Part shown: positions 8,390 through 61,273 of the stretch, one piece after another
Numbering within the stretch: position 1 is the first letter of the stretch
Layout: every line of letters starts with the position of its first letter
Source: a virus
Length of the DNA: 64,000 nucleotides
IMG/VR virus record: IMGVR_UViG_3300036820_000012
Coordinates: 1-64,000 of that record
Reading direction: 5' to 3' (one strand)
Made by a program: the position numbers and the translations under genes
Notes under the pieces: model-generated
What the model was told of the DNA's origin: nothing
What the model saw: only the letters and a program-made list of their open reading frames with translations
Databases searched by the model: none

Positions 8390-8391
8390 GG

Positions 8392-17476: not shown

Positions 17477-17559
17477 AACGCCGTGGCGGCAAACGCTTCT
17501 CGTCGGCGGGGCCGCGTGTGGATGACCCGGAATCAATGGACGGTACATGGAAGGTGTGC

Positions 17560-23594: not shown

Positions 23595-23838
23595 CGGCCC
23601 GGTCATCCTCACCGCGTTCTGTCCGCCCGTCTGTGAGCACGGCCACGTCCTGCGTTACGGGGGCCGCAAGGACGCCAGGTTCCTGCCGAACAGAGTCACA
23701 GTCTCGTTCGCTACCTGCGACTGCCCGGCAGCCAGAGCGAAACCCGGTGCGTCAGGGCACATCGCCGTGCTCTGCCGCCGTTGCGAAGACGCAGGAGTTG
23801 AGACCTTGTTCTACGACCCTCCCCACGTTCCCGGTTAG
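23584..23838 (+). CDS. Cys-rich small protein, 84 aa
   Basis: ATG 23584. Cysteines at 13, 17, CDC near 45-47 and CRRC near 64-67 indicate a zinc-binding fold. Its TAG stop is interlocked with the TAA stop of the opposing GIY-YIG gene within TTAG (23835-23838). Confidence 0.55.
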   Translation: MASDGPVILTAFCPPVCEHGHVLRYGGRKDARFLPNRVTVSFATCDCPAARAKPGASGHIAVLCRRCEDAGVETLFYDPPHVPG

Positions 23839-25900: not shown

Positions 25901-26009
25901 GCGGGTCCTCCCGGCCGGTTTAGAAGTGCTACTGCACAGAAGCACTATCATTTCAGCCTGGAATCCAGCCCTCCACATGCCACGCCGCAGAAGCGCAACT
26001 ATTTCGGCC
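25901..26009. promoter_or_regulatory. intergenic region between the two recombinase genes
   Basis: Contains an inverted repeat AGTGCT/AGCACT (25925-25930 and 25941-25946) with a second GTGC/GCAC pair nested inside. It lies upstream of the tyrosine recombinase start, so it could be an operator or an arm-type recombinase site; nothing decides between them. Confidence 0.3.
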
Positions 26010-43280: not shown

Positions 43281-43333
43281 GAACCCCCCTGCTCTGCTGG
43301 GCGTGAGTGCGTGCCGGACGGAAGGATGACGGC

Positions 43334-43531
43334 ATGAGCGTCTTCGAACTGTTCAGGCAGACGTGCGATGGCTGCGGCGCGGCGATCGACGACATGGCCA
43401 AGCACGTCGTGTGGCACGAGGGACTCAGCGAGATCACGCGGCTGGTTGTCGCACCTGACGTGTCAAAAGAGGACTGGGCCGAGGCCGCAGAGCAAGCCGC
43501 AGCGAGACGGCGCGAGGACGAACGGAGCTAG
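43334..43531 (+). CDS. small zinc-finger protein, 65 aa, antisense to the virion operon
   Basis: ATG 43334 with GAAGGA upstream, which can also be read as a -10-like AAGGAT six bases away. CDGCG (11-15) with H23 and H27 gives a C2H2-type site; acidic/basic helical tail. One of nine plus-strand genes between virion genes. Function unknown. Confidence 0.6.
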   Translation: MSVFELFRQTCDGCGAAIDDMAKHVVWHEGLSEITRLVVAPDVSKEDWAEAAEQAAARRREDERS

Positions 43532-43540
43532 GCGGCGCGG

Positions 43541-46500
43541 TTAGAACATCGGCTCCCCAGCCTGATCAAGGATCGGTGCGCCGGATTCGTCGTCCAGTTC
43601 CTGGGCCTGCCCGGTGCCCCACCACCACGGCGGGCACCAGTCAGCGAGGACCGCGGCGGAGGCCGTGCCAGCAGCAAAGTTGAGCTTCCGCTTGACCTGT
43701 GTCACACGCCAGATTCCGGTGAACGCGGACTGGCCGGGCATCCACTGGGTGACCTGGATCACGTCGCCAGGGTTGACGCTCAGCACGTACTCCCACGCCC
43801 CGGCAACGCCCGCCATCGCTGCCGCGTCCACGGTCAGCGACGTGACCCGCTGGCGGGGGGTGCCGTAGGTCGCGAACACCCACGAGGCCTGGTCCTGGAT
43901 CTGCGTGGTGTCCTGCAAGTACGAGGTGAACTGAAGCTGGCAGTCACCGAATTGACCGAGGCTTGCCTGCACCGCTGCCGCGTACTCGGCGCCCGGCCCG
44001 AACACGAGGCCGCCGTGGCTCTCACCGGAGCCCGTTGCGGACCCGGCTTCGCCTGCGGGAACGGACGTGACGTCGTACTGCGTGATGGCGATGTCGTTGT
44101 ACACGCGCTGCGGGTCGGTGTCGAACGTGACGTCCGGCAAGTACGGAACCTGGCCGTAGGCGACCAGCGGGCCGAGATGCCACGCCGGGGACTGGGCGGC
44201 GAGATGCGGGCGGGAGAAGTAGCACAGGTTGCCGCAGGTGTCGACATACATCAGCCCGTCGTCGGACTGGACGATGTTGGAGATGTTGTCGCCGCAGCTT
44301 TGCCCCGCCGTGTCGAGTTCGGCGACGCAGGCGAGGTCAGCGGGGTCGATGCACCGCTGCGGGCTGGTCACGCCACCGGACCACAGCAGCCGCTCGATGC
44401 GGTTCTGCACCGAGTCCCCGAGCGCTGAGGCTTCCGCGGGCGGCACGGGAGCGTCGGGCGGGGCGTAGGACGTGCAGTAGATGTAGGGCAGGATGCCCGA
44501 GCCGAGAAGCTGCTCGCCGCCCCCGGTGTTGCCCACCCAGAAGCTGTAGGCCGGCGCGAGGCCGGTGGCCGACAGCCACGCCTCACCCGTCTGCGCGCCC
44601 TCGGAGATCGTGAACAGGTTCACGCTTTCGGGCTGGGAGACGGCCGAGGTCAGCTCACCCGCCGTGGCGGTGACGTAGCAGGCGAGGACTGAGCGGTCCA
44701 CCCCGTGGGAGTAGAAGCTGGACCCGGCGCCGATCAGGTTGAAGAACGGGATGTTGAGGTACGCGTTGCCGTCCGGGTAGTACGTCGGGCCGCCCGCCGC
44801 GTTGCCGAAGAACTGGCAGCTGACCGTAGGTGCCGGAAGCTGCCCGAACGCCGAGTACGCCGCGAGGAAGTGCGCCATCACCCTGGCAGCGGGAAGGACG
44901 CCCGGGTAGATCGCCAGGTGCGACCACGCGGCGCACGGGATGCCGGTGATCGTGGAGGCCGTGGGAGGTGCCCCGGTGTTCCCCGTCGCTGCGGTTGTGG
45001 CCCCGCCGAAGAAGACCCAGTCCCAGTTCGCCGGCATCGACGCCGTCCCGGAGACCGTGGCGATGACGCCGCCGTTCACGTAGACGGTCCACGAGTCCTG
45101 CGTCATGGTGACGGTGACGCCCATCCAGGCGCCGTCCCAGAGGTAGTTCTCCGGGTAGATGCTGTAGATCACCGTGGAACTTGCCACGCCGCCGGACCAG
45201 GTGGTGAACGTCAGCTGGGAGTGGTTGTCGAGCCACAGCATGGCCAGCGGGCCGTCTTCGTTCGCGGCTTCCCAGATGGTCAGCGGCGCGACGGCGACCC
45301 CGGTGAAGGTGAGTTCCCGGCCGGTCATCGGCTGCCCGGTGTAGCCCTGCGGCAGCGGCACTTCGGGAATCGCCGGGGGAATGCTGTACCCCGCGTTGGC
45401 GAGGGCGGGCTGCCACCAGATCTCGATGGTTGCCCCGTCAGCGAGGGACGGGAACGTGTCGTTAGCGGACAGGTACCGGCCGCAGGTGGAGACCCCGCTG
45501 CCGGTCTGCTGCCACGCCGCGCTCAAGCTGTCCCCGTACATCCAGCCGGACTGCTGCGCGAACTGCTGGATCGCGACGTACGCGAAGACCCCGCCGGCGC
45601 CGTTGTACGGCCCGTAGGACCCGATGCCGTTCGGGCTGACGACGATGTCCAGCGCCGTGTCCGACGCGGGCGCGGCGTTCACCAGGGACGTGGCCTGGTT
45701 GACCCCGCTGTCGTCGCACGGCCACCACCAGCCGGGCGAGTCAGCGAGGACTTCAGCCCGGTAGCACGCCGGGACGTAGCGGTTGGCCGTGCTCCAGAGG
45801 TCAGTTCCGGTGGCGTTGCTGACGCCGCGGAACGTCTTCTCCCACGACTGCGGCCAGCGCTCCATGTTCCGCTGGATGATGTGCCACCTGTTGCCATTCG
45901 GCGGCACGCAGCGCAGCCGGATCGGCGTTCCGGGAGTGATCCACGGGTAGTACGGGCTGCCGGGGTTCGACGGGCTCAGGTAGCCGTCCGGATTGTCGAG
46001 GGCGATCTCGGTCTCGGATGCCTCGAGCTGGTCGAGCTCGTACTGGATGCCGGTGGTCTCACTCCACGAGCGCATCCGGTGGCCGCCCTGCGGCGACTGA
46101 ATGTTCGTCCACACCATCTGATCCGGCGGCGTCTGCATCCCGCTGCCGAACGCCGCCTCGGCGATCACGTACGGCCAGACGGTGTTCCTGACGACCGGGA
46201 CGGGCGAGGGTGCGTCAATCACCGCAGCGAGGATCATGCCGGACAGGTTCTCCGCACCGACCGCCGTGGCGGTGATGTTCTGGCCTGCCGTGGAGATGGT
46301 GCACGCGGCGGTGAGGACGGCGTCCGAGGAGGCGTCGGTCCCGTTGGCGCAGGTCACGGTGGCCAGCGACGTCCAGCCGTACGGCTCCAAGGCGGTCTGC
46401 GCCGCGACGGAGTCCCCGCAGGCTGCGGCGAGGAAGAACGTCACCTGGGGCGTTGCGGAGGCCCCGGTGTCGCTGATGGGGTGAAGGACCGGGCTCAGCA

Positions 46501-48418: not shown

Positions 48419-48424
48419 ATCAGC

Positions 48425-48835
48425 TCACGACTGCGACAAAATCAGGCCGCCAGCTGCCGGCGCTAGCTCGTCCCCAGGTGGTATAAGCAGGGGCGCACCG
48501 GCCCATACGCCCTGGAACTGGCGCACGGGGGTTGCTTGCGTGGTCCAGATCTCGGCGCCGGTCACTGCCCACGGCGTGGTGCCGCTGTTGGTCCAGAGCG
48601 GGACCGACGTGTTGGACGTGAGCGCGGGGGTGCCAGTGGGCGTGGCCCACGTGACGAGCAGGCCCCCGGCTGTGTAGCCGGTGGCGACAAGCTCGGTCAT
48701 GTACCCGCTGCCCGTGGGGGCCGTGGGCGCGGTCGAGCCGAGCCGCAGGTGCACGCCAGAGATCGACGGGTAGGCAGCGATGCCCAGGGCTGCTGCCATG
48801 GACGTTGCCGCAGCGCCGGAATCCCAGCCGCCCAT
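48425..48835 (-). CDS. small tail protein, 136 aa
   Basis: Resembles a family of small phage tail/virion proteins (ALGIAAYPSISGVHLRLG, then a beta-rich body with W residues and QFQGVW). ATG 48835 overlaps the stop of the upstream zinc protein (TGATG); an internal ATG at 48799 is the alternative. Confidence 0.6.
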   Translation of the reverse strand: MGGWDSGAAATSMAAALGIAAYPSISGVHLRLGSTAPTAPTGSGYMTELVATGYTAGGLLVTWATPTGTPALTSNTSVPLWTNSGTTPWAVTGAEIWTTQATPVRQFQGVWAGAPLLIPPGDELAPAAGGLILSQS

Positions 48836-49023
48836 CAGCCCGCTCGCAGGACCATAGGTGGCGGGCTGATCCGCACCGGCCGGCAGGGCACACCGCTGGC
48901 GATGGCTGCCTGCCCGTGGTCATGGGGAAGCGGGCAGCAGCCGCACTGCAGGAGCAGGTGACCGCTCAGGACATCGGCAGCGAAGACGGAGGCACCGCAG
49001 CGCAGGCAGGTCACGGTCAGCAT
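48835..49023 (-). CDS. small Cys-rich protein, 62 aa
   Basis: ATG 49023 with GGAAGGGAG five bases upstream, a strong ribosome-binding site. CLRCG and CGCCPLPHDH supply a zinc-binding set. Its end overlaps the next start, so it belongs to the minus-strand operon. Unknown role. Confidence 0.55.
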   Translation of the reverse strand: MLTVTCLRCGASVFAADVLSGHLLLQCGCCPLPHDHGQAAIASGVPCRPVRISPPPMVLRAG

Positions 49024-49056
49024 CTCGCTCCCTTCCGGGGCGTTACGCTGGCTGGC

Positions 49057-49356
49057 GTGAGCATGAAAGCCGAGTGCCCGGCCTGCAAGGCGTATCTCTC
49101 CGGCGTCTGGGACGCGATGGAGTACGGCGGTGCCTGCCCGAGTTGCGGACTGCCAGGGACCGCCATCGCCGATGTCTACGCAGCGCGCAAGACGAACGCC
49201 GAGAAGGAACTACTCGCCAAGTACGAGGAGGCGGTCATCCGCGCGGGGAGGGCTGAAGCCGAGCGAGATATGCTGCGCGGCCACCTTGAGGCCATTGACT
49301 CCGAGATGCGCGTCTGGCAGGCGGATGAAAAGCACCTGGCGAAGGCCGAGGGCTAA
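49057..49356 (+). CDS. zinc-ribbon coiled-coil protein, 99 aa, antisense to the virion operon
   Basis: GTG 49057 (or ATG 49063). N-terminal CPAC and CPSC pairs form a zinc ribbon (5-29); residues 45-99 are a charged coiled coil. TACGCT (49044-49049) lies seven bases before the GTG. The TAA stop interlocks with the TAG stop of the tape-measure gene in CTAA (49353-49356). Confidence 0.6.
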   Translation: MSMKAECPACKAYLSGVWDAMEYGGACPSCGLPGTAIADVYAARKTNAEKELLAKYEEAVIRAGRAEAERDMLRGHLEAIDSEMRVWQADEKHLAKAEG

Positions 49357-52300
49357 GTTCCGCGCCCCGAGAGCTGCAGCCCGCTGCCCGTGTTCCGCCG
49401 CGCGTGCTGGAGCGTGTACGTCTGCACGACCTGCGCGATCTCCTGGCCGCCGACTTCCAAGTGAAAATGCATCGTCTGCGACCCGCCGCCACCGCCTGAG
49501 CCGCCCCCGGCAACGATGGGCATCGGATGGGCCGTCGACCCGCCGCCGTAGCCGGAAGCCCCCCGGGACGCGACGATGGCCAGTTCCCTCGCCGCCGCGC
49601 CCACCATCGGGCCGCCCGACGTGATGCCGCCCGCCATGCCCGCCGCGAACTGGGAGCCCATGTCGAACGCCACCATCGACGGGGAGTGGATCTTTAGGTC
49701 CTTCTGCATCTCGGTGACGATCTGCGACGCCAGGGACTTGATCGCCGTCGTCACCGAGCCGAGCTCGGACTTCAGGCCCTGCGCGAGCCCTTCGCCGATC
49801 TGCGACCCGGACTCGTAGGTGGCGTTCGCCCCGGTCGTGCCCAGCTGCTTCGCGGCGGCCCCGATCTGCTTCTGCAGCGACGCGATTTCCTGCACGCCCT
49901 TGGTGCCGCCGGACAGCATCATCTTCGAGGCTGACAGGCCCCCGCCGCTGACGCCGGCCTGCAGAAGCTGCTGCAGGGACGTCGGGTCCAGGCCCTCCGC
50001 CTTGAGCTTCTTGATGTCGCCCGTGAACGCGCGGGTCTGGCTCAGGTACTGCTGCAGCTGCCCCTGGATGGAGTCGCTGGCCGTCAGGGACGCCGGGGCC
50101 TTGATGTTCATCGTGTTGCCGGTCATCTGGTTCGCCGCGGCGACGGCCTGGGCGTTCTGCTGCGCGAGGTCGAGCGGCGTCCCGGCCGACCCGTACGGCG
50201 AGGAACTGGTGCCCGACGACGACGATGAACTGCTGGACGACGACCCACCTGATGTCACGTTCCCGGCGAACGTCGCCACGTTCGCGCCGGCAACAGTGGC
50301 CTGGTCCACCGACTTGTACAGGGCATCGGCTGCGGTGATCTTGGACTCGATGTCCTTGCGCTGCTTGGCGAGCGACATCAGGCGCTTGTTGTCGGCGTCG
50401 AGCCACGCCGAGATGCCGGTCTCCTGCGACGGGGAGATGGTCCCGGCCTTCAGCGCGCCCTTCAGGTCGGTCTGGAGCTTGGCGATCGTGTCGGTGATCG
50501 TTTTGTCGGTGAACGGCGCCGTGATGCCCTTGGCGGCGTCTTTCGCTGCCGTGGCGAGCTGGGACTTGCCGCCTTCGAGGCCGAGGATGTAGCCCTTCAC
50601 GTCGTCCTGGGCGATGCCCTTGAAAACCTTGGACGGGGACTGCGTGCCGTGGGCCGCTTTCACCGCTGCCGTGACTTCGTTGGCCATCGTCCGCGCTGCC
50701 GCTACGGCTGCCCCGGTGGACGCGGCGATCCCGGCTGCCAGGCCCGCGCCGAGGGCGGCGCCTGCTGCCGAGCCTGCGCCGCCGAGGGATGACAGGGCGG
50801 ACTTGATCTCGGCCACGACATGCTGCGCTGCCGCTTCTGGCTGCCCGGCGCCGCCGTTGATGCCCGAGGCGAGGCCCGTGTCGAACGAGCGGCCGGCGGA
50901 GGACCCGGCTGAGTTCAGCGACGAGGACAGGGCGGTCAGGCCGGACAGTTTCGCGTCGGACAGGTCGACGGTGACGCCGTGGATCTTGACGTTGCTCGCG
51001 GCCTTGTTGATGCCTGAGGTGTCTACCTTGTCCACCTGGGCGGTAGCGGGGACCTTGGTGTCGCCGCCCTTGAGGCCCGAGGTGTCGGCCTTGTCGACCT
51101 TCGCCTCGGCGGGGACCGGGACCTTCGGGCCGCCCAGGTTCAGGGACTTCACCATCGCGCCCGGGTCGATCTTGGGTTCCACCTTGACCGGCAGCGGCAG
51201 TGCCGATCCGCCGGACAGCTGGTGCGCCAGCGCGCCCGTGTCGATGTGGCCGCCCTTGACGTCGACCTTCGGGTCGACCGTGACCGGCCAGTGCAGGGTC
51301 TGCGGCTTCAGGTTGGAGCCGAGGCCGGGAATGATCTGCCCGAGCGCTTCCTTCGCGGCGCTCCCCAGGCGGCTTGTCAGCCCCTTGGGCAGCGTGTCAT
51401 AGTCCTTCTCGTACTTGTCAGCCAGGCTGAGGATCTGGGTGAGCGGGTTGCTGCTCTTGCTCCCGCTGCCGCTGGCCTGGTTGCCGAGGTTGAGGATGCT
51501 CTGAAGCTGGGAATGCAGGCTGCTGAGGTTGATCTTCTCCAGGGCGCCGAGGCTGCCGGCGATCTTCCCGATCTGGGGGGCCGCCTGGGACGCGTCGTTC
51601 ATGATGTCCTGCATGGCGCCAGCCAGGCCCTTGACCACACTGCCGGTACCGGGGCCGATGGCCTTCAGGAGGCCGTCGAACGACTTGATGAACGACTCGG
51701 ACCCCTTGAGCCCCTCGCCGCCGAACGCGTCGCCGATGTACTTCCCGACACTGGAGATCGCCGACCCCGCCGACTTGACCGCTCCCGGGGTCTCCTTCAG
51801 CAGGTCGTTGAAGGTCTTGACCGCGCCGCCGGACTCCATGAACGTCTGGAGATTCTTGATGCCCTTGTCGAGCAGGCTCCCGCCGAGATTCGCCGCCGGC
51901 TTGAGGAACTGCGACATGCCCTCGGACACCGCCGACAGGGCATCCCCGGTGACCCGCAGCACCTCGGGCTGGAACGATTTCGCCATCGAGTCGTACTGCG
52001 ACTGCAGGTTCCCGAACGCCTGGATGACAGGGCGGATCGTGGCCGGCACGTCGGCGTAGGCGGCTTTCAGTTTCGCCGCGTCGGTGGCTGCGTCCGCGAT
52101 GTTGGAGGTGGTCGGGTCAAGCTTCGCGACCTGCTCAGCCTGCGTCCACGTCTTGCGTGCCGTCGCGACGTTCTCGTAACTCGACTCGATCTTGGACAGG
52201 GTCGGCAGCGCGAGAGCGGCGAACCCGCCGAGCGCGACACCGCCGCCCGCCGCAGCCGTCGCGAATGCCGGGCCGAGGCCGCCGACCAGCCCGATCAGGC

Positions 52301-53396
52301 CGCCGATCGCGCCCGTCATCGGCGACAGTTTGGACGTGATGGGATCGAACGCCTCGGAGACCGACTCCCCGAACCCGCCGACGCCTTCCTCAGCGTCGCC
52401 CGCGCCGGCAGCAACGCCCTCAAGGCCGGCAGCCGCGCCCTCAACCACCGGTGCGGCGTCACCCAGGGCAGCGGCCACATCGTCGTACTGGCCAGCGAAG
52501 TTGTGCAGGCCGTCAACGACCCTCGGGACGGTCCCGCCGAACTGGCCGAGATGGCTCTCGGCATCATCCAGCCCGTCGCTGAGCGAGTCCATCCGCATCT
52601 GGATGTCTTCCAGCGCGGACGCCGTCGTGCCGCCCCTGGCCCCGACTTCGCCGAGACTCTGGCCAAGGTCCTCAAGATCGTTGTGCAGGCCTGCGGTGGA
52701 GATGTCCGCCCCGCCGGCAGCCTGGTCGAACTCGCGAAGCTCGCCCGACAGCGCCGAGAACCGCTCGTTGGCTTCCGAGATCTCATCAGCCGTGGCCGCG
52801 ATCCCGGACGCCTTCGCAGCGCCGCCGCCGGCACCCGCAGCGTCCATCGCGGTTACAGCGGCGGCGGCCTCGGCCGCCTCGTCCCGGACGTGGCCGAGGG
52901 AACTGGCCAGCGCATCCGCCGACGCCGCATCCCCGGCCAGCCCTGCGCCTGACGTGCCCAGCGAGTCAAGCGCCGCTTCGGCCTCAAGGGCTTCGTCACG
53001 CAGGTGCCCGAGCGCCGTGGCGTCAGCATCAGCGGCCGGGGCAATGTCCGCGATGTCGTCGCCAGTGGTGGCGAGCGACTGGACCGCGGCCTCAGCCTCT
53101 GCGGCGTCGTCCCGCATCGAGGCGAGACCCTTGGCGGCAGCCTCAGCACCAGCGGCGACGTCGCCGACCCCGGCGCCGGCGTCCCGGATCGACTTGAGCG
53201 CCTTGGCTGCTTCCTCAGCGTCGTTGCGGAGTTTGCCTGCCGCCTCGGCGGCGGACCCGAAGGCGCCGCTGATTGAGCCAGCCGACGCCTCGGCGTCCTT
53301 CAGCGCTGAGGCGAGGTTCCGCGCTGCCTCAGCGGCATCCTCAAGAGCCCCGGCGCCTTCGACGGTGATATCTACGTTGCCTTCGACGTCAGCCAC
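49353..53396 (-). CDS. tail tape measure protein, 1347 aa
   Basis: Sets tail length and fills the tail tube. Begins with long Ala/Glu/Asp-rich helical repeats (1-330), continues into a hydrophobic Gly-rich stretch typical of tape measures (MTGAIGGLIGLVGGLGPAFAT, about 360-405), then mixed helices and a Ser/Gly-rich C-terminus. Residues about 770-865 carry repeated KVP(A/V)-type units. Immediately downstream of the tail chaperone genes in transcription order, the standard place. No lytic transglycosylase or peptidase motif is noticed. The many long opposite-strand reading frames here are side effects of GC-rich codons. Confidence 0.88.
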   Translation of the reverse strand: MADVEGNVDITVEGAGALEDAAEAARNLASALKDAEASAGSISGAFGSAAEAAGKLRNDAEEAAKALKSIRDAGAGVGDVAAGAEAAAKGLASMRDDAAEAEAAVQSLATTGDDIADIAPAADADATALGHLRDEALEAEAALDSLGTSGAGLAGDAASADALASSLGHVRDEAAEAAAAVTAMDAAGAGGGAAKASGIAATADEISEANERFSALSGELREFDQAAGGADISTAGLHNDLEDLGQSLGEVGARGGTTASALEDIQMRMDSLSDGLDDAESHLGQFGGTVPRVVDGLHNFAGQYDDVAAALGDAAPVVEGAAAGLEGVAAGAGDAEEGVGGFGESVSEAFDPITSKLSPMTGAIGGLIGLVGGLGPAFATAAAGGGVALGGFAALALPTLSKIESSYENVATARKTWTQAEQVAKLDPTTSNIADAATDAAKLKAAYADVPATIRPVIQAFGNLQSQYDSMAKSFQPEVLRVTGDALSAVSEGMSQFLKPAANLGGSLLDKGIKNLQTFMESGGAVKTFNDLLKETPGAVKSAGSAISSVGKYIGDAFGGEGLKGSESFIKSFDGLLKAIGPGTGSVVKGLAGAMQDIMNDASQAAPQIGKIAGSLGALEKINLSSLHSQLQSILNLGNQASGSGSKSSNPLTQILSLADKYEKDYDTLPKGLTSRLGSAAKEALGQIIPGLGSNLKPQTLHWPVTVDPKVDVKGGHIDTGALAHQLSGGSALPLPVKVEPKIDPGAMVKSLNLGGPKVPVPAEAKVDKADTSGLKGGDTKVPATAQVDKVDTSGINKAASNVKIHGVTVDLSDAKLSGLTALSSSLNSAGSSAGRSFDTGLASGINGGAGQPEAAAQHVVAEIKSALSSLGGAGSAAGAALGAGLAAGIAASTGAAVAAARTMANEVTAAVKAAHGTQSPSKVFKGIAQDDVKGYILGLEGGKSQLATAAKDAAKGITAPFTDKTITDTIAKLQTDLKGALKAGTISPSQETGISAWLDADNKRLMSLAKQRKDIESKITAADALYKSVDQATVAGANVATFAGNVTSGGSSSSSSSSSSGTSSSPYGSAGTPLDLAQQNAQAVAAANQMTGNTMNIKAPASLTASDSIQGQLQQYLSQTRAFTGDIKKLKAEGLDPTSLQQLLQAGVSGGGLSASKMMLSGGTKGVQEIASLQKQIGAAAKQLGTTGANATYESGSQIGEGLAQGLKSELGSVTTAIKSLASQIVTEMQKDLKIHSPSMVAFDMGSQFAAGMAGGITSGGPMVGAAARELAIVASRGASGYGGGSTAHPMPIVAGGGSGGGGGSQTMHFHLEVGGQEIAQVVQTYTLQHARRNTGSGLQLSGRGT

Positions 53397-53430
53397 GGGT
53401 CACCCCCGTCCGCCGTCTCAGCAGGTCAGA

Positions 53431-53865
53431 TCACAGTCCGGACGCGTCGAAGATCTCCTGGACGACCTCCTCCATCACCCCGGGCAGCGCACCGTCAGCC
53501 CACGAGATCGTCCGCTCGAGGTAGTGAGCGCCTTCCTGGTGGACGTGGCGCGCGAACGTTCCGTCGAAGTGCAGGAACCCCATGTGGACCTTGCCGGTGC
53601 GCTTGTCCACGTACGTGTGCTTCGGCTCGATGTCGCCGCCGTAGTTGCGGAACGACGCATACAGCGGAAGGTGGGTGCGGAACGTCACGCCGCCGTCAGA
53701 CACTTCCGTGCCCTCGGAGTCGGCCAGCGCCCCGGTCAGCTTGGGCGTATAGCCCCTGAATGCCTCAAGCAGTTCCGGGGCGAACTTCTCCGCGATGGTG
53801 CGCGGGCAGTTCTCGAGTTCCCCGGCGAGCTTGTCCAGCGCGTCAGCGAGGCCACCGAGGTCCAC
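53431..53865 (-). CDS. HK97-gp10-like neck/tail completion protein, 144 aa
   Basis: Small protein with features of the HK97 gp10 family: a helical N-terminus, APELLEAFRGYTPKLTGALADS near 30-50, and a beta-rich middle with YASFRNYGG. GTG 53865 lies 3 bp after the frameshifted chaperone ends. In most siphophages this gene precedes the major tail protein, so its place just before the tape measure is unusual. Confidence 0.6.
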   Translation of the reverse strand: MDLGGLADALDKLAGELENCPRTIAEKFAPELLEAFRGYTPKLTGALADSEGTEVSDGGVTFRTHLPLYASFRNYGGDIEPKHTYVDKRTGKVHMGFLHFDGTFARHVHQEGAHYLERTISWADGALPGVMEEVVQEIFDASGL

Positions 53866-53868
53866 GGG

Positions 53869-54491
53869 CTAGCCGCCGTTCTCTATGGCGCGGATGCAGG
53901 ACTTCATCGGGTTGAGCCACCGGTACATCCCGAGCGGGAGCGCTTGGACCTGCGGTGGCAGCAGGTTGTGCTCCAGGAACCACCGGCAGTCCGAAGCGGT
54001 CCTAGGGTCCAGGCCGGGCGGAGGTTCTGCTACCTCACCTTTCAGCCACTGTCTGAGCCAGAGCCATCCGTCGTACTCGTCTTGGGTTCGGGCTCTTTTG
54101 GGCCGGCCGGGCCGTCCAGCGCGGCAATGTGAGGCTTGGTGGCCTCATTCAGCGTCTTGCCCGCAGTCAGCGGCAGGAGCTTGCGCGATTCCGCGGAGTA
54201 GGGCAGCGGGATGTGCGGCACCGCGCCCTCGGCCGCGTAGGACCAGTCCAGGATCAGCGAGGCGAACAGGGCGTCACGGCGCTGGGCCAGCATGTCGGCG
54301 GTGAGGCGCAGCTTCGGCTTCGGTACGCCCTCGCCCTCCTCGTCGGCGTCGGCGTCAGCTTCCTCGGCGGCCTTTTTCGCCCAGGCCTCCTGAATCACAT
54401 TGCGCCACGCGTCGTCGTCGGCTGCGGTGAGCGAATCGGGATCCCGGAGTTCCACCCAATGACTGCCGGGCCCCGGGATTTCGATTCGCAT
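53869..54491 (-). CDS. tail assembly chaperone GT fusion by -1 frameshift
   Basis: The G reading frame from ATG 54491 reaches the slippery heptamer C-CCA-AAA (minus strand, 54102-54096). A -1 slip there continues for 75 more codons to the stop at 53869, giving a ~207-aa product. The T extension is Trp/Arg-rich (DGWLWLRQWLKG) and ends MKSCIRAIENGG. Production of a minor GT product from G is a near-universal feature of long-tailed phages; it helps load tail-tube subunits on the tape measure. Confidence 0.8.
54042..54491 (-). CDS. tail assembly chaperone G, 149 aa
   Basis: Main, unshifted product. ATG 54491 preceded by AGGAGG; the upstream ATG at 54527 would ignore it. A basic beta N-terminus, a long acidic helix (about 25-60) and a C-terminal Pro/Ser tail. 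Directly upstream of the tape measure in transcription order, with the slippery site 55 bp before its stop. Confidence 0.8.
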   Translation of the reverse strand: MRIEIPGPGSHWVELRDPDSLTAADDDAWRNVIQEAWAKKAAEEADADADEEGEGVPKPKLRLTADMLAQRRDALFASLILDWSYAAEGAVPHIPLPYSAESRKLLPLTAGKTLNEATKPHIAALDGPAGPKEPEPKTSTTDGSGSDSG

Positions 54492-54564
54492 AGTGCCTCC
54501 TGGTCGAACACGTGTGTGGACCGCCATTGATGACGGTGAGTAGCGATAGAATGACTAGACGAAG

Positions 54565-54598
54565 GATCGCCGCCGCGATTAGGCCCGCGACGGCGATC
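54565..54598. terminator. hairpin between chaperone and plus-strand genes
   Basis: GATCGCCGCCGCG (54565-54577) pairs with CGCGACGGCGATC (54586-54598), with one mismatch and an 8-nt loop, in the divergent gap. It may terminate or attenuate transcripts, or form part of the leader of the plus-strand gene at 54638. Confidence 0.4.
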
Positions 54599-54637
54599 TG
54601 CCGGACAGCACCTAGATGAGACCTAGGAGTGCACGAC

Positions 54638-55213
54638 ATGGAACAACTTACGCTTGACGGTGGCACGGTGCCGATCTGCACCGCCTCGGCCGATGACCTC
54701 TTCCGCTGGTGCCGCATGGCGAACGTGGTCGCCTTTGAAATGCTCGGCTACCGGAACAGCTGCATTCTGACGTCCCACGCCCTCACTGCGTTTCTGCGCC
54801 AGAAGGGACTGGATGCCGAGCCGTTCCGTGCCGAGGTGCATGTGCACCATCTGACGGACCGCACCGTTTCCGGCTGCGGGCTGGGCTGGGACGGCGACGG
54901 GACGCGGCGCCCTGCCGCCGAACCCGGCTCCTGGCGCGGTCATCTCGCCGTGATGTGCGACGGCTACGTGCTTGACCCGACGATCGACCAGGCCGAGGTT
55001 GGCGGCAAGACGATCCAGCCAGCCGTGTTCGCCATGCCGCCGGGCTGGGATGACGGCAAGAGGCACATCTGGACGGAGAGCGGACTCCAGGTCAGCCACC
55101 AGCGCTACCGCCGGCAGATCGGGTGGAAGTCAGCACAGGCCGCCCGGCCGATCCACTGGCGGGACGTGCTGACCGTGATGCAGAACTCCGAGGTGTACGG
55201 AGACTGGCGATGA
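54638..55213 (+). CDS. papain/transglutaminase-like fold protein, 191 aa
   Basis: Contains an NSCILTSHALTAFLRQKG helix with C42 at its start, then GHLAV (H102) and LDPTIDQ (D113, Q118). A Cys-His-Asp order with this spacing is typical of transglutaminase/papain-like cysteine hydrolases. ATG 54638 with TAGGAG upstream. It overlaps the next HNH gene (ATGA), and the pair lies antisense within the virion operon. The enzyme's target is unknown. Confidence 0.5.
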   Translation: MEQLTLDGGTVPICTASADDLFRWCRMANVVAFEMLGYRNSCILTSHALTAFLRQKGLDAEPFRAEVHVHHLTDRTVSGCGLGWDGDGTRRPAAEPGSWRGHLAVMCDGYVLDPTIDQAEVGGKTIQPAVFAMPPGWDDGKRHIWTESGLQVSHQRYRRQIGWKSAQAARPIHWRDVLTVMQNSEVYGDWR

Positions 55214-55902
55214 GCGCATCAGCCGCGCTCGAGCTAGTGCCAGCATCCACAGTGGAAGATGAGCCTGAGCGCTGGCTGCCCGTCGTGGACTTCGGGCACT
55301 ACGAGGTCAGCAGCCTCGGCCGTGTCCGCAGCATTGACCACGACGTCATCGCAGCCAACCGATGGGGCGGCCAGAATGTGCGCCGCCTCCGCGGTCGCAT
55401 GCTTGAGGGCACGTGGGATCACACCGGCTACCTGATGGTCTCGATGTACCGGGCTCCCGGCGAGAAGCAAGAGAAGCGGCCCGTGCACCAACTGGTCGCC
55501 GATGCCTTCATCGGCGAGTGCCCTCCTGGCCAGGAGGTGCGTCATGGGCCGAACGGGAGGACGGATAACCGGGCGTCGCAACTCTGCTACGGGACCAGGA
55601 AGGAGAACGCAGGTGACAAGAAGCGCGACGGCACGGAGTTTTACTCCAGCCGCGATGAGTGCGGCGCAGGTCACAAGTACACGCCCGAGACAAGTTACGT
55701 CCGCAACAAGCCTGACGGGACGTTCAAGCAGCGCGTCTGCCGGATCTGCGAGGCCGACGCTCATCAGCGGCGCGCGGAACGGCTGAAGGAGAACCCGCCA
55801 CCGCCGTGCACCAAGCCCGGCTGTGACGATCCCCAGCTAGCCAGGGGCCTGTGCAACAAGCACTACAAGCAGTGGCGGAAGGCCCAGCCCAAGGCCGCGT
55901 AA
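55210..55902 (+). CDS. NUMOD4/HNH homing endonuclease with zinc fingers, 230 aa
   Basis: Residues 20-42 (RWLPVVDFGHYEVSSLGRVRSI) are a NUMOD4 motif; residues 91-136 (VHQLVADAFIG, RHGPNGRTDNRASQL) are the HNH_3 active site. The C-terminal third holds two C/H-rich zinc-finger-like segments (CGAGH...CRIC; CTKPGC...CNKHY). Coupled to the preceding gene. The typical architecture suggests mobility of this two-gene insert. Confidence 0.85.
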   Translation: MSASAALELVPASTVEDEPERWLPVVDFGHYEVSSLGRVRSIDHDVIAANRWGGQNVRRLRGRMLEGTWDHTGYLMVSMYRAPGEKQEKRPVHQLVADAFIGECPPGQEVRHGPNGRTDNRASQLCYGTRKENAGDKKRDGTEFYSSRDECGAGHKYTPETSYVRNKPDGTFKQRVCRICEADAHQRRAERLKENPPPPCTKPGCDDPQLARGLCNKHYKQWRKAQPKAA

Positions 55903-55915
55903 CCTGATGTCCGTT

Positions 55916-57187
55916 TCAGTACCCGCTTATCCCGTTCTCCAAGGTGATCTGCACAGCGCCCCACCCGCCCGAGTTGCCCACGTTCACGGTGTTACCTCCC
56001 AAAATACCTGAGGTTTGGTACCCGAAGGTGGTTTTGCCCGGTGTGAGCTGCGCCTTGTTAAATGCCCCGATGTGGGCCGCCACGGAGAACGACACGAGAC
56101 CCGACCCGCTGCCCCCGTTGCTGGTTGTCCACAAAAGGGTAGGTTGTACATTATTGATGTAGTTCAGGAGGGCACTCTGATCTACCGCCGGCGAGTACAG
56201 GAGGTCAAATGTCCCATCTAGGGGACCTCGTGCTATTACGTACGGGGCTTCCTGTCCGTCGATAGCCGGAATTGGCTCGACATCGCGGGTCAAAGTGACC
56301 GTCCATTCGGCCACATTGTAGATAGATGTGCCCCCAACGGTGGATGTGCCTTTCCACGCAGGGATCGCCCGCACCGAGGACAGGGTGGGAGTCACCGCCG
56401 ATGCTGGTGCCTGCTGCGGCCAGCCTGTGAAGCTGCCAGACCACATCAAAAGCCCCGTAGCTGCACCAGTCAGCTTAAGCTGTGACATGCAGCAGTACGG
56501 GTACTGGTCGGTGTAGTAGTTCGCGGATCCGCCCGTCTGGTTCCGGTCCAGGATCGCGTGGCTCGGTGGCTGGCCTGAGATGTTCCCCGTTGCCGACGCC
56601 GGGTTCAGCGTCGAAAACACGTGCGTAAAGGGAGCTACTACGGTCGTAACGGTCACGGCTGACGCGTGCGCGAACCGGATCGGCGTCGTCGCCGCGACCA
56701 CGATGGAGGTGACCCCAGACCCGGTCCCCACCGTCACGATCTCGGCGAGGCTGCCGGTGTCGATCTGGATGTAGGTGCCGGCCGTGGCGGCGGTACCGGT
56801 GGTAACGGCGATCGGGCCGGCGCCGGGAGTGAGCGCGCTGGAGGTCGTCCAGGTCGGCGTGCTCGCGGTGCCGGTGTCCGTCCAGTCGCCGAGCATGTTG
56901 GCCAGGATGTGGCCGATGGTGTCGCCGAACAGGGGCGAGTCCGGGACCGTCATCTCAGTCCAGAACGCGGCAGGCTGAATGTCGAAGATCGACGTCATCG
57001 CGCCGCGGAGTCCCTTGTCCTCCACATAGTTCAGCTTCGGATCTGGGGCAAATCCGGCAACTGGGACTTCCACGTACCCTGCGGTCGGCGGCTGCCCGTA
57101 CCCGGCCAGTTCGCGTGCGATGCCGAGGTACCGCTCTGCAGGCGGGAAGATTGGGCTCGGAACGGCCAGGTTGCTCACGGAAACCAC
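55916..57187 (-). CDS. major tail protein (tail tube), 423 aa
   Basis: Long major-tail-protein-like sequence: an N-terminal segment with NYVEDKGLRGAM, beta-rich middle repeats (ITVGTGSG, TTPIRFAH), and a C-terminal ATLTRDVEPIPAI-like tube core. Related over most of its length to the 384-aa protein at 59304-60458 (shared RFAHxxA...HVFs, tRDxxPIPAI/HRDLGICPVI, LLNYINNVQ). GTG 57187; a second in-frame GTG at 57178 is also possible. One of two tail-tube-type proteins in this operon. Confidence 0.65.
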   Translation of the reverse strand: MVSVSNLAVPSPIFPPAERYLGIARELAGYGQPPTAGYVEVPVAGFAPDPKLNYVEDKGLRGAMTSIFDIQPAAFWTEMTVPDSPLFGDTIGHILANMLGDWTDTGTASTPTWTTSSALTPGAGPIAVTTGTAATAGTYIQIDTGSLAEIVTVGTGSGVTSIVVAATTPIRFAHASAVTVTTVVAPFTHVFSTLNPASATGNISGQPPSHAILDRNQTGGSANYYTDQYPYCCMSQLKLTGAATGLLMWSGSFTGWPQQAPASAVTPTLSSVRAIPAWKGTSTVGGTSIYNVAEWTVTLTRDVEPIPAIDGQEAPYVIARGPLDGTFDLLYSPAVDQSALLNYINNVQPTLLWTTSNGGSGSGLVSFSVAAHIGAFNKAQLTPGKTTFGYQTSGILGGNTVNVGNSGGWGAVQITLENGISGY

Positions 57188-57266
57188 CCGTTTCTGTCAG
57201 TCAATGGGCAGGTGGGATAGCCGGGCCGGGCCATTGCCGTCCGGTAGGTCTGCGGGGAGGTGCAGG

Positions 57267-57614
57267 TCAGGCGCCGTCAGTGCCGCTGGGCAGCGCGGAG
57301 GCGAGCGGGGGCGGCGTCACGGGCCTGGGCGCAAGTGGCGGCAGGGCCGCAGCCGCAGGAGCGCTCTCAGCCGCTTCCGGCTCCGGGTCAGCCAGCCGCT
57401 TGGGCAGCGGCCCGTCACTGGCGAACCAGTCAGCGGTTGGGGCGGGGAACCACCAGGCGCGCTCGTCAGCGTCTTCCGGAGGTGTGGCGCCGAAGGGAGC
57501 GTCGAACTCGCGCTCAGCACCGGGCTCGACGTAGCCCACGATGTCCGCGTGAGCGTCCCGGGACTCAGGAAAATTGGAGGCTACGCAGCCGCAGAAGGTG
57601 AAACTGCTGGGCAT
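57267..57614 (-). CDS. hypothetical virion-operon protein, 115 aa
   Basis: ATG 57614 with AGGAGG at ideal spacing. N-terminal CGC, then an acidic middle, and a Pro/Ala-rich disordered C-terminus. Between tail genes; role unknown. Confidence 0.6.
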   Translation of the reverse strand: MPSSFTFCGCVASNFPESRDAHADIVGYVEPGAEREFDAPFGATPPEDADERAWWFPAPTADWFASDGPLPKRLADPEPEAAESAPAAAALPPLAPRPVTPPPLASALPSGTDGA

Positions 57615-57663
57615 GACGGCCTCCTGGGGCTAAAGAGCGGCAGCGAGTGGGACGATGGCGCGC

Positions 57664-58062
57664 ATGGTCACTGATGAGCAGGTGGCGTTCCTGCGGGACC
57701 GGTTCAGCGAGGACGAGGCGTCCGCGAAGGCTGCATGCCTGTTTGGCAGCGGGAACTGGGTGCAGGATGACCCCGGCCGGTATCCGGGCCACATTGACTC
57801 CGACACCGGCACTGTCACCTACGACGAGGGTTCACCGACCCACGATCAGGCTGCGCACATCGCCCGCCATAACCCGGCGCGGGTGCTGCGCGATGTGGAG
57901 GTCTGGCGCAGGATCCTGCTGGAGTACGGGACCGCAGGCCTGGACGCGAAGTACGCAGGCACCGAGCGGGAGACCGGGTTCCAGCTGGCGCTCAGCTTCG
58001 CCCTGAAGTCCAAGGCCGCGGTCTACAAGGACCACCCGGACTACGGGAGGCTGTTCGGATGA
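57664..58062 (+). CDS. DUF6221-like protein, 132 aa, antisense to the virion operon
   Basis: Resembles a family abundant in Streptomyces chromosomes: start VTDEQVAFLRDRFSEDEA, a Trp/Tyr-rich middle with GNWVQDDPGRY, then HIARHNPARVLRDVEVWRRIL. The ATG at 57664 fits the family start and follows GACGAT (57651-57656); an upstream ATG is at 57655. Its stop overlaps the next ATG. Function unknown; host-like ancestry suggests acquisition from the bacterium. Confidence 0.7.
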   Translation: MVTDEQVAFLRDRFSEDEASAKAACLFGSGNWVQDDPGRYPGHIDSDTGTVTYDEGSPTHDQAAHIARHNPARVLRDVEVWRRILLEYGTAGLDAKYAGTERETGFQLALSFALKSKAAVYKDHPDYGRLFG

Positions 58063-58415
58063 GCGAGATGGCGCAGCGCAGCAGCCTGCCCGCGGTACCG
58101 AGCACGCAGAGTTTCGGCGACCTGCTCGGCCGCTACATGTGGGTCCAGGAGGTCGCGATGGACTGGGGCTGGATGAACGGGGTGCTCACGATCCGGGGCA
58201 ACCTGAAGCCCGATCCGGACGCCGCCAGCCCGTCAGCTTTGCGCCGGTCGTTCCTGGACTCGCTAGACGCCGTGATGGCGATCATGGAGGCGGCCGGGGC
58301 GAAGTGGGAGTCGCATCCGGAGGTCGAGATCGTCGGCAGTGCGATTCACAAACTTGGCGGTGGTCAGGAGTTCGCGGGTATCGAGTGCCGCTGCAAGCTG
58401 GAGATCTTCGGCTAG
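58059..58415 (+). CDS. hypothetical protein, 118 aa, antisense to the virion operon
   Basis: ATG overlaps the DUF6221-like stop, so both are one unit. Alpha/beta pattern, Trp-rich segment WVQEVAMDWGWMNG, and CRC near the end. Its TAG stop is interlocked with the TAG stop of the facing virion gene in CTAG (58412-58415). Confidence 0.6.
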   Translation: MSEMAQRSSLPAVPSTQSFGDLLGRYMWVQEVAMDWGWMNGVLTIRGNLKPDPDAASPSALRRSFLDSLDAVMAIMEAAGAKWESHPEVEIVGSAIHKLGGGQEFAGIECRCKLEIFG

Positions 58416-58834
58416 CGCGTCTTCGGCGTCAGGTTGGAAGCGGTGCCGCGCTTGGCGTGCTTGAGCGGCTTGATTTCCTGCGGCGCAGCGATCCGCATCT
58501 CGGTGACCAGGAACCGGAACGTGCCGGTGACGGGCTTGCCGTCCTCGCCCAGGTGCAGCTTCGCGGGCGTGCGGTAGATGGGCTGCCCGTCCTCATCGGT
58601 GAACATGACGACCTCGGCCCAGATGATGCCGCTGGCCTTGGCGTGGAGCGTGATCTCCGAGATGGTCGTGACCGGGCCGTCAGCGTTGAAGGGCGCGACG
58701 CCCCACCCGGCGATGGCCCATCTGGTGCCCCGCGCATGAACCGGCCACTCGATTCCGATCTCGCCGATGGCGTCGTCCCACTCGTGCGCCTGGACTAGGT
58801 CGTCGTCTGCCACGGCTGCTGCGCTCTCAGGCAT
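58412..58834 (-). CDS. hypothetical tail-region virion protein, 140 aa
   Basis: ATG 58834 with GGGAGGT upstream; the reading frame extends further but this start has the only good ribosome-binding site. Soluble, beta-rich centre (TISEITLHAKASGIIWAEVVMF). Located between the two tail-tube paralogues; probably a tail component. Confidence 0.6.
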   Translation of the reverse strand: MPESAAAVADDDLVQAHEWDDAIGEIGIEWPVHARGTRWAIAGWGVAPFNADGPVTTISEITLHAKASGIIWAEVVMFTDEDGQPIYRTPAKLHLGEDGKPVTGTFRFLVTEMRIAAPQEIKPLKHAKRGTASNLTPKTR

Positions 58835-58872
58835 GAGACCTCCCAGGTGGCGTGACGTGCGACGATGGCGAA

Positions 58873-59313
58873 ATGAGCGAAACCGAAGCGCTGCCAGCCG
58901 GAACGACCGTCTACTTCTGCCCGCTGTGCGGATGGTCGCATCCCCAGTTGCCGCCGACTGAGCAGGAACTGATGGAGGCTGCAGCGGACCCGATCGTGAC
59001 CTACCTGCACCGCAAGTTCCGCGATGTGGAGGCCGCGGTTGAGGCGCACCTGAACACGCACGGCCTGCTCGACTGGCTGAACGAGGTGAGCCGTCTGCGG
59101 TCAGAGCTGGACGCCTCGCAGGAGGCATTCCGCCGGCTGGAGGTGGAGAGGCAGAACGGGGAACGCGACGCCGCAATGGTTGCGGCCGTCCTGACGCGCA
59201 AGCTTGGCGGGACCGTGCTGGTGACCGACCTCGACCTCGTTCAGGAGAGCGCGGCGCTCGTGCGGGTTCCTGAACCGCACGGCTTCACGCTCACCATCGT
59301 GAGTCACCCGTAG
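58873..59313 (+). CDS. zinc-motif coiled-coil protein, 146 aa, antisense to the virion operon
   Basis: ATG 58873, six bases after GACGAT (58861-58866). CPLCG (about 16-20) with H23 and a His further along make a zinc site; residues 75-110 are a coiled coil. Its 3' end overlaps the end of the facing tail-tube gene by 10 bp. Unknown role. Confidence 0.6.
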   Translation: MSETEALPAGTTVYFCPLCGWSHPQLPPTEQELMEAAADPIVTYLHRKFRDVEAAVEAHLNTHGLLDWLNEVSRLRSELDASQEAFRRLEVERQNGERDAAMVAAVLTRKLGGTVLVTDLDLVQESAALVRVPEPHGFTLTIVSHP

Positions 59314-60458
59314 GCGTCCTGCACGTAGTTGAGCAGCGTCGCCGTGAACGCCGCCCCGCCTGCTGGCTGCGCGATCCCGGCCAGCGAGTACGTGGCGGAA
59401 AGGTAGTTTCCGGTCGTGATCGGCTCGCCTGTCAGCCACCCGGAGCGCGGCATCGTCAGCGTGACCGAGCAGCCCCCGGCGAGGACGGGCTGCACCAGCG
59501 AGTGAACGACGGGGTCCTGCGTGTTGCCCCAGAAGTTGTCGAAATCGTCCGTGTTCTCAAAGATCGCCGTGTACGTCCCGTCCGCCTGCAGCGGCCCCGG
59601 CCAGATGCCAAGCGGCTGCTGACTGTTGGCGATGACGGGGCAGATGCCCAGGTCCCGGTGCAGGGTCAGGTCCATCTGCTGGCCACGGGTTGACGCGCCG
59701 CCCCCGGTGGTGACCGCCCACGCCCACCCGTAAGCAGGCTGAGCGGACGTCCCTTCCCAGGCGAAGGTCTCCACCGCAGCAGGCGGGAAGCCGGACGCGC
59801 TCGCGGTGAGCTTCGCCATCCCGTCGCTGCCGATCTTCACCGCCAGCGAGGAGACGACGGTCCCTGGCCAGCCGAGCGGTCCCGTGCCGTCGTCCATCGT
59901 CAGGCTCCAGCGGGGCCAGGAGAACGTCGGCCCTTCGGAGTTCTGCGTGAACACGTGCTGGCTCTGCGAGACCGCCGTGTCGCCGTCAGGGTGGGCGAAC
60001 CGCAGCGGCGTGGTCAGCGGCACCGTGTACGGCCCGGAACCTGTCGGAGTGCCTGCCTGCGCGTACTCCAGCGCGGCACCGGAGCCGAGCATGAGCACCG
60101 CGCCAGCGGCAGGCTCAGCGGCGAGGGAGACAGCCTCAGCGCCTGCGCTCGCCGCCGCCGTGAGCGTGGTGGTGATGCCGGGGGTGCAGTCGTCCGGCCC
60201 GATGACGCTGGCCAGCCAGAAGCCGATCAGGTCCGGGTACAGGCCGCTGGGGATGACCCACTCCGACCATGCCGGGCCCTGGAGCAGGTCCTGGAGCTCG
60301 GAGTCGCTGCCGCGCAGCGCGATGTCCCGCAGGGGGGTGATGACCTGCTTGTACTTGGCACCGGAGGAGAAGATCACCGGGAACGTGGGGAGTTCGTAGA
60401 CGCCGGGGACGGACTCAGCGGCGATGCCGAGCTTGGCCGTGCGGCTCAGCACCGACAC
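59304..60458 (-). CDS. tail-tube paralogue, 384 aa
   Basis: Second tail-tube-type protein. A helix-poor beta N-terminus (SRTAKLGIAAESVPGVYELPTF), ITPLRDIALRG, a central RFAHPDGDTAVSQSQHVF and a C-terminal tube-like fold (MDLTLHRDLGICPVIANSQ). Matches the 423-aa protein at 55916-57187 in order and motifs but is clearly divergent. GTG or ATG near 60458. It may be the major tail subunit or a specialised segment of the tail; which of the two is the main tube cannot be decided from sequence. Confidence 0.65.
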   Translation of the reverse strand: MSVLSRTAKLGIAAESVPGVYELPTFPVIFSSGAKYKQVITPLRDIALRGSDSELQDLLQGPAWSEWVIPSGLYPDLIGFWLASVIGPDDCTPGITTTLTAAASAGAEAVSLAAEPAAGAVLMLGSGAALEYAQAGTPTGSGPYTVPLTTPLRFAHPDGDTAVSQSQHVFTQNSEGPTFSWPRWSLTMDDGTGPLGWPGTVVSSLAVKIGSDGMAKLTASASGFPPAAVETFAWEGTSAQPAYGWAWAVTTGGGASTRGQQMDLTLHRDLGICPVIANSQQPLGIWPGPLQADGTYTAIFENTDDFDNFWGNTQDPVVHSLVQPVLAGGCSVTLTMPRSGWLTGEPITTGNYLSATYSLAGIAQPAGGAAFTATLLNYVQDAYG

Positions 60459-60487
60459 GGCGGCCTCCCGGCGCTATCGTGGCGGCC

Positions 60488-60892
60488 ATGACCGCGAGCA
60501 CGAGGATTGACAACCCGCTTGAGCTGCACTCGGCTTGCGTGCCGTGGCTCGGCCATTCATCACAGGTCAGGGTGCCGTGGCTCGGTGCCGTGACGGGCTA
60601 CATCCCTGCGACAGTCGTCTCACTTGCCGGCAACGTTGAGCCGGGCGATGGCGCGGACATGACCAGTGCCGGTGTGGCGCGACTGCACCTGCTGACGCGC
60701 GCCCACGAACTGATCACGTTCCTGGCCGCCAGCGGCTGGGTGCTGAACGACGCTCCCGTGATGGACTTCCGCGGTCACCTTGAGAGTGGCCGCTGGACTA
60801 TCGGCGGCGAGATGGCCGAGCCGCCTCAGGAGTACGGCATCTGCCTGTCGGTGAGCCTTGAGTTGATCGCGAGCGGACTCCACCGGGTGTAA
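60488..60892 (+). CDS. hypothetical protein, 134 aa, antisense to the virion operon
   Basis: ATG 60488, seven bases after TATCGT (60475-60480); GTG 60479 is the in-frame alternative. Small alpha/beta protein with no motif recognised. It diverges from the tail-tube paralogue, the starts being 29 bp apart. Confidence 0.55.
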   Translation: MTASTRIDNPLELHSACVPWLGHSSQVRVPWLGAVTGYIPATVVSLAGNVEPGDGADMTSAGVARLHLLTRAHELITFLAASGWVLNDAPVMDFRGHLESGRWTIGGEMAEPPQEYGICLSVSLELIASGLHRV

Positions 60893-60943
60893 CCTTCCCG
60901 CCAGCGCGCAACGGGGGAACGTCAGCCGCGCCAGGGGGAGAAC

Positions 60944-61273
60944 ATGAACGCTGACATCAAGCCGCGCCGCAGTAACCAGCGGTGGCCCATCGTGGACGTG
61001 ATCGCCGGGGGCGTACTCGTGCTCGCCCGGCTGATCGCGCCAGGGGTTCCGGGGCTGGTCTTCAGGGACAGCATCAGCCAGGTGCAGGGCATCTGCGCGT
61101 CGAACTTAGGGACGTTAGCCCAGACCGCTGACTCATCGGTTGCGCATGGCTGCGCGAATGCATCCACCGCGATGACCGTGCTCAACGTCGCCGCCGCAGT
61201 CGGCGTCCTGCTGCTGGCAGTCGGGGGCGCGAACCTGCTGCTCAGGGCGATCCGGCAGGCCCAGCACGGCTAG
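60944..61273 (+). CDS. two-TM protein, 109 aa, antisense to the virion operon
   Basis: ATG 60944 with AGGGGGA upstream. TM helices at about 16-38 and 79-101, joined by an extracytoplasmic loop with two Cys that may form a disulphide. Basic ends. Its TAG stop interlocks with that of the facing virion gene in CTAG (61270-61273). A superinfection-exclusion role is possible but unproven. Confidence 0.6.
   Translation: MNADIKPRRSNQRWPIVDVIAGGVLVLARLIAPGVPGLVFRDSISQVQGICASNLGTLAQTADSSVAHGCANASTAMTVLNVAAAVGVLLLAVGGANLLLRAIRQAQHG

Follow-up and report, generated by a model that had tools for sequence, protein, structure and literature searches.

Antisense genes in the gaps of a tail module

We analyzed the first 64 kb (the window) of the 80,723-bp IMG/VR virus record IMGVR_UViG_3300036820_000012, in which nine plus-strand genes are located among virion genes of the minus strand. 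The virion block encodes TerL, the portal, an intein-split MuF-like protein, the major capsid protein (MCP), two major-tail-like paralogues (MTP and MTP2), the tape measure protein (TMP), and large glycine-rich and beta-helix tail proteins; MCP, portal, and TerL, which are upstream of the tail module, were assigned by homology. An earlier note, made from the letters alone, had listed the nine genes, and we recovered all of these open reading frames (ORFs) at the positions claimed, between 43334 and 61273. They occupy six gaps, here called slots and named after the flanking genes: g076/g074, TMP/g077, MTP2/TAC (TAC, tail assembly chaperone), g088/g085, MTP/g088, and g093/MTP. Genes of the opposite strand are therefore nested within the virion operon, as in a noncontiguous operon.

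Because the nine ORFs are located between virion genes, which they overlap by only 4 to 10 bp at some stop codons, they are not shadow ORFs of GC-rich genes. All show the coding GC signature of the genome (third-position GC3 of ~0.78 to 0.88 and second-position GC2 of ~0.41 to 0.51), and homology backs four of them, either through Pfam (DUF6221 and HNH) or through homologues in other contigs (the genes at 58059 and 58873). Long antisense ORFs are abundant in GC-rich DNA, and the window has mostly 65 to 72% G+C. Nevertheless, we give almost no credence to the idea that the plus-strand ORFs are spurious products of this composition: their placement in gaps, their GC3, and the domains or homologues of four of them refute it for the DUF6221, HNH, 58059, and 58873 genes, the refutation being weakest for the gene at 43334.

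Nine such genes had been considered unusual. This holds outside the lineage, since the virion blocks of five cultured actinophages, a small hand-picked sample used for scale, contain 0, 0, 0, 0, and 3 antisense genes. It does not hold within the lineage, where the closest relative has more and contigs G020 and G005 have at least seven. In two other contigs, G002 and L069, antisense genes are lacking past the capsid gene, and the trait is therefore variable within the family.

Conserved junctions and exchanged cargo

The closest relative, IMGVR_UViG_3300036820_000026 (hereafter G001), consists of one contig. Its flanking virion proteins are 48 to 98% identical to those of the window and occur in the same order, whereas its antisense content is different in every slot, being absent, moved, or replaced. 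The DUF6221 gene, for example, lies in slot g088/g085 in the window and in slot MTP/g088 in G001. Among 13 related contigs, from which G016 was excluded (gene calls on the wrong strand), 33 of 49 antisense genes had no relative in the set, compared to 11 of 195 sense genes (Fisher test, P = 1.5e-19); the contigs are mutually related, so this P value is overstated, but the contrast is still large. The comparison with relatives that had been proposed beforehand thus shows that these genes come and go. In this they behave as morons, being absent from close relatives with conserved virion genes (in the slot comparison with G001 and in other contigs), and as the cargo of a hotspot, with high turnover between conserved flanks and six slots of different content in G001.

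The orientation is kept when families move. DUF6221 genes (several slots) and the families of 58059 and 58873 (in G020) change slot yet remain antisense in virion blocks. The possibility that relatives carry these genes in the minus (sense) direction had been raised as well; within virion blocks we found no such case for DUF6221, for the 58059 and 58873 families, or for Imm_superinfect, while HNH genes occur in both directions.

The divergent junctions of the slots are conserved. Between the window and G001, their identity amounts to 83% at TMP/g077, 74% along the entire MTP2/TAC junction, 66% at MTP/g088, 77% at g093/MTP, and 70% between the two g093/MTP genes, whereas the cargo behind these aligned junctions is no more similar than shuffled sequences. 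At the sixth junction, g076/g074, both ends are conserved (57 bp at 84% and 20 bp at 90%) and the middle is not. The cargo is probably exchanged when phages recombine within the conserved virion genes and junctions, perhaps with the help of homing endonucleases. These results can be compared with what ordinary moron mosaicism would give, that is, insertion wherever virion genes stay intact, with the antisense orientation tolerated because translation is undisturbed and having no regulatory role. Such mosaicism is in agreement with the presence of HNH-type genes in slot MTP2/TAC of three contigs, with the existence of sense-direction HNH genes, and with the frequent occurrence of small sense accessory genes between the portal and MuF genes of G006, G007, and G010. 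However, the non-shared genes of the tail module are mostly antisense, and the promoter-like junctions are conserved apart from their cargo, so that we regard mosaicism without regulation as unlikely.

Slot g076/g074 contains one gene (43334-43531, plus strand), encoding a 65-residue CxxC protein, recognized by its ORF and its GC signature and preceded by a Shine-Dalgarno-like sequence, versus at least five antisense genes in G001. Ahead of it, at 43290-43329 on the plus strand, a TGCTCT-N7-GTG element opens an 8-codon mini-ORF (VSACRTEG, then stop). In G001, TACTCT-N7-GTG opens a 73-codon Cys-rich ORF at this place, and the mini-ORF retains the first and last codons of that ORF; the middle seems to have been cleanly deleted, with both junction ends left in place.

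Slot TMP/g077 harbors a gene for a 99-residue CxxC/coiled-coil protein (49057-49356, plus), which starts with GTG behind a -10-like TACGCT (49044-49049) and whose stop overlaps that of TMP (CTAA, 49353-49356). The identical hexamer is found in G001, but with a 101-residue transmembrane (TM) protein behind it. A 62-residue CxxC ORF (48835-49023, minus) is divergent from 49057 and lies within a 243-bp stretch that is 94% identical to G001.

The divergent junction of slot MTP2/TAC (54492-54637, plus) comprises a -10-like TAGAAT (54547-54552), a hairpin leader, and a Shine-Dalgarno sequence before 54638. The hairpin (54558-54640) has a z-score of -4.8 in the window and of -0.2 (not significant) in G001, and we therefore claim no conservation for it. 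The first gene (54638-55213, plus) encodes a 191-residue protein with a C/H/D motif that, by sequence, resembles cysteine hydrolases; no homologue was found in phage records or IMG/VR, and a single-sequence structure model was poor (pLDDT of 35) and unusable. The second (55210-55902, plus) encodes a homing-type endonuclease with NUMOD4 and HNH_3 domains (Pfam, 1e-10 and 3.4e-7; PADLOC homing endonuclease, 7.6e-9), which bears out the HNH nuclease named previously. By eye, antisense HNH-like ORFs were also seen in this slot in G001 and G013.

In slot g088/g085, the first gene (57664-58062, plus; ORF open from 57655) follows GACGAT-N7-ATG (57651-57666) and encodes the DUF6221 protein, an assignment that Pfam supports with 2e-22 (57655-58062). 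The gene is absent from this slot in G001, where the GACGAT hexamer is altered and ~208 bp separate the flanking genes. It is followed by a gene for a 118-residue protein (58059-58415, plus), which overlaps it by ATGA and shares CTAG with the g088 stop (58412-58415); a homologue with 41% identity is antisense in another slot of G020. A second DUF6221-like gene (L002:14971-15432, contig 76970-77431) runs in the virion direction beyond the virion block.

The gene of slot MTP/g088 (58873-59313, plus; GACGAT-N6-ATG, 58861-58875) encodes a 146-residue CxxC/coiled-coil protein with a homologue of 37% identity, also antisense, in the tail-fibre region of G020. At the matching junction of G001, it is DUF6221 that follows. 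The CxxC motifs are the sole basis for the label of zinc proteins given earlier to the products of 43334, 49057, and 58873. Finally, slot g093/MTP carries a gene for a 134-residue protein (60488-60892, plus), preceded by TATCGT-N7-ATG (60475-60490), and one for a 109-residue TM protein (60944-61273, plus) that shares CTAG with the g093 stop (61270-61273). In G001, a leader with 70% identity to that of the latter precedes an Imm_superinfect gene.

Start signals, gene ends, and functions

In five slots, a hexamer (TATCGT, TACGCT, GACGAT, GACGAT, or TGCTCT) ends 6 to 7 nucleotides before the first start codon, and such -10-like hexamers back the starts at 49057, 57664, 58873, and 60488. Slot MTP2/TAC instead has TAGAAT, behind which lies a leader containing a Shine-Dalgarno sequence. 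Among the related contigs, [TGC]ANNNT was present 6 to 8 nucleotides before the called start in 13/34 slot-leading antisense genes, 5/25 internal antisense genes, and 4/222 sense genes (P = 6.6e-10 for slot-leading versus sense), with a background of 5.9% of all ATG/GTG in the contig. The hexamer without a Shine-Dalgarno sequence was found in 11 of the 34 slot-leading genes and in none of the 222 sense genes. In Corynebacterium glutamicum, TAnnnT is found at 97% of start sites and 33% of mRNAs are leaderless (PMC3890552); with respect to this consensus, GACGAT deviates at base 1 and TGCTCT at base 2. These signals suggest that slot-leading genes may be expressed from leaderless mRNAs, though not all of them, since a Shine-Dalgarno-like sequence precedes the called start in 16 of the 34.

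A scan for Escherichia coli-type promoters gave no signal in the slots. We also considered GCCTCC-N3..28-TGACGTGGGANNATG as a general phage promoter and rejected it. It had six matches in IMG/VR, two of which were G001 and G013; the other four were taken as chance, because three belong to AT-rich contigs and the fourth (L072, 60% GC) is surrounded by genes of the same strand. A shorter junction element, with one mismatch allowed, was not more frequent in the window than by chance; its two exact copies in the window are both at slot starts, and only these were used.

Most antisense genes stop at most 50 bp from the neighboring sense stop, with an exact 4-bp stop overlap in 11 of 34 convergent pairs, and terminator-like sites were not more frequent than in shuffled DNA. 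Since the stops nearly coincide and terminator-like sites are no commoner than chance, transcripts of both strands probably overlap. The gene order and the lack of terminator-like sites also suggest that the virion genes may form a single transcription unit extending across the antisense genes. The earlier note had proposed one half of such a reciprocity, namely, that transcripts of the plus-strand genes interfere with late transcription; in a strict form of this idea, holding back the late operon in lysogens would be their main role and the proteins would be secondary. Convergent overlapping ends without terminators would indeed let these transcripts enter virion genes, and in prophage BTP1 superinfection exclusion is mediated by an RNA antisense to virion genes (PMC7067206). 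However, the ORFs are maintained as coding genes, the exchange involves whole coding units, and slot g088/g085 has been emptied in G001, all of which makes a primary role of the transcripts improbable in our view. The opposite half, in which late transcription shuts off the cargo, is more likely given the published layouts of 80-alpha ith/tha (PMC11087260) and TaiEcA (PMC11364771).

In the 49 cargo proteins of the relatives, Pfam identified DUF6221 in seven and Imm_superinfect in one (in G013, 7.2e-17), as well as a metallophosphatase and an XRE-type helix-turn-helix. A second Imm_superinfect gene, missed by the gene caller, is located in slot g093/MTP of G001 (17171-17491, 7.3e-16), preceded by the counterpart of the 60944 leader of the window. 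For this reason the TM protein of 60944 is, by position though not by its own sequence, a candidate immunity protein. Large multi-pass membrane proteins are encoded antisense after the beta-helix tail protein in G001 and G013, the one in G001 having no Pfam match. PADLOC found only the homing endonuclease in the window; Imm_superinfect proteins are present in relatives. For DUF6221, a structure model (pLDDT of 76.5) had no PDB match with an E value below 2, and a literature search found no mention of the family.

A large serine recombinase at 26010-27401 (minus; Pfam Resolvase, 8.6e-25, and Recombinase, 1.8e-12) is an integrase that marks a temperate lifestyle. In the region 23835-27401 it adjoins a 217-residue tyrosine recombinase (25247-25900) and a 471-residue protein without a Pfam match. 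The antisense genes could also be lytic early or host-takeover genes, on before late transcription and unrelated to lysogeny, and it fits this idea that Rhodococcus phage Trogglehumper has a DUF6221 relative among small genes of its left arm and that the left arm of the window contig is likewise plus-strand. Imm_superinfect and an XRE-type regulator among the cargo of the relatives, together with the integrase, leave it only a slim chance.

An actinobacterial soil host is indicated, because a relative of the capsid gene with 71% identity is on a contig of a Streptosporangiaceae metagenome-assembled genome and a second Streptosporangiaceae genome also has a phage relative. In a Streptosporangiaceae-family genome (G136 contig 224, L084-L086), one end of the phage relative has, by eye, an integrase-like gene, and the opposite end has FtsK-like and XRE-like genes. 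The window has no tRNA genes, and a megablast search of its 40- to 64-kb half against phage records gave no match.

Among the virion genes themselves, all on the minus strand, TMP is encoded at 49353-53396 (PHROG tail families, E values down to 8.5e-36) and the beta-helix tail protein at 34620-38279. MTP (59304-60452) is 89% identical in G001; MTP2 (55916-57178) is its paralogue, with ~28% identity between the two families, and both are kept in several relatives. The tail assembly chaperone gene has a slippery sequence, CCCAAAAG, at 54095-54102 (minus), where a -1 shift would give a 207-residue product. The MuF-like head protein, just beyond the window (L002:5005-7092, contig 67004-69091), contains an in-frame intein (Hint_2, 1.4e-11; Intein_splicing, 6e-5), and a 1,424-residue portal-like protein of G001 (contig 4907-9181, L026) has an intein-like stretch, read by eye.

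A proposed multi-slot late operon and its relation to known systems

We hypothesize, with a probability of roughly 0.6, that the tail module is a multi-slot noncontiguous late operon, whose lysogen-expressed cargo is read against the tail genes and silenced by late transcription at induction. The tail-module operon runs on the minus strand, and six of its intergenic junctions would act as docking slots. In each of them, the start of a virion gene stands back-to-back with a short promoter-like element, from which one or two accessory genes would be read the opposite way, and the cargo usually terminates on or near the adjoining virion stop codon. Host sigma-A-type promoters would express the cargo in the lysogen, where it may serve prophage-state functions, such as superinfection immunity, and at induction late transcription would cross the cargo as antisense and turn it off. 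A more specific version, which we offer tentatively, is that an array of standing leaderless-type promoter docks takes interchangeable antisense genes and that late transcription shuts the prophage-state set together, with no dedicated regulator. The prophage-state programme suggested in the earlier note is in agreement with the accessory nature of the genes, the promoter-like elements, the integrase, and the lysogeny-type cargo of the relatives (Imm_superinfect and the XRE-type regulator); expression of the window's own cargo in the lysogen would be its further premise.

Several points weigh against our hypothesis. Besides the relatedness of the contigs and the Shine-Dalgarno-like sequences in nearly half of the slot-leading genes, the -10 contrast with sense genes mainly reflects that antisense genes have start signals and operon-internal genes have none. 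Selection to keep the ribosome-binding site and start of the virion gene accounts for part of the junction conservation, and the junction alignments cover the window and a single relative, G001. Apart from DUF6221 and HNH, the window's cargo is without an assigned family, the other seven of the nine genes having no significant Pfam or PHROG match. DUF6221 genes are also found outside virion blocks (at contig 76970-77431 and as gene 40, near the integrase, of Arthrobacter phage Hestia), and antisense genes are few or lacking in the tail module of those Streptosporangiaceae contigs that share this capsid.

If the hypothesis is true, prophage-state genes of uncultured actinophages could be found behind conserved divergent junctions of the tail module, and one phage could carry many immunity-type genes, all switched off at induction by orientation alone. 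The slots nominate candidate superinfection-immunity genes, with 60944 at the head of the list, and indicate where the role of DUF6221 might be sought.

Precedents exist for antisense morons, for noncontiguous operons, and for cargo hotspots in phages, and a limited literature search gave no description of a single tail module with an array of slots whose junctions are kept while the cargo is exchanged. The Staphylococcus aureus phage 80-alpha has the ith/tha noncontiguous operon and three further such regions (PMC11087260), and TaiEcA is a prophage defense gene modeled as being read against a Q-controlled late operon (PMC11364771); in both, orientation links an immunity gene to the lysogenic state (PMC11087260, PMC11364771). 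In 80-alpha, however, it is the cI operon that surrounds the antisense gene, which inhibits the immune system, whereas here the tail module encloses six slots with cargo swapped behind conserved junctions. The TaiEcA system is a single gene, in contrast to several slots with varied cargo. The antisense moron of Salmonella ST64B and the BTP1 antisense RNA STnc6030 (PMC7067206) are lysogen-expressed, antisense to lytic genes, and provided with their own promoter, a placement called characteristic of moron loci. Unlike the protein-coding units described here, which are known from sequence, they are single loci with demonstrated expression, and STnc6030 is an RNA. The defense hotspots of P2-like phages (PMC9122126) share with the slots a high-turnover cargo between two conserved phage genes, but they form one locus beside the cos site, whereas here six short slots are located within the tail module.

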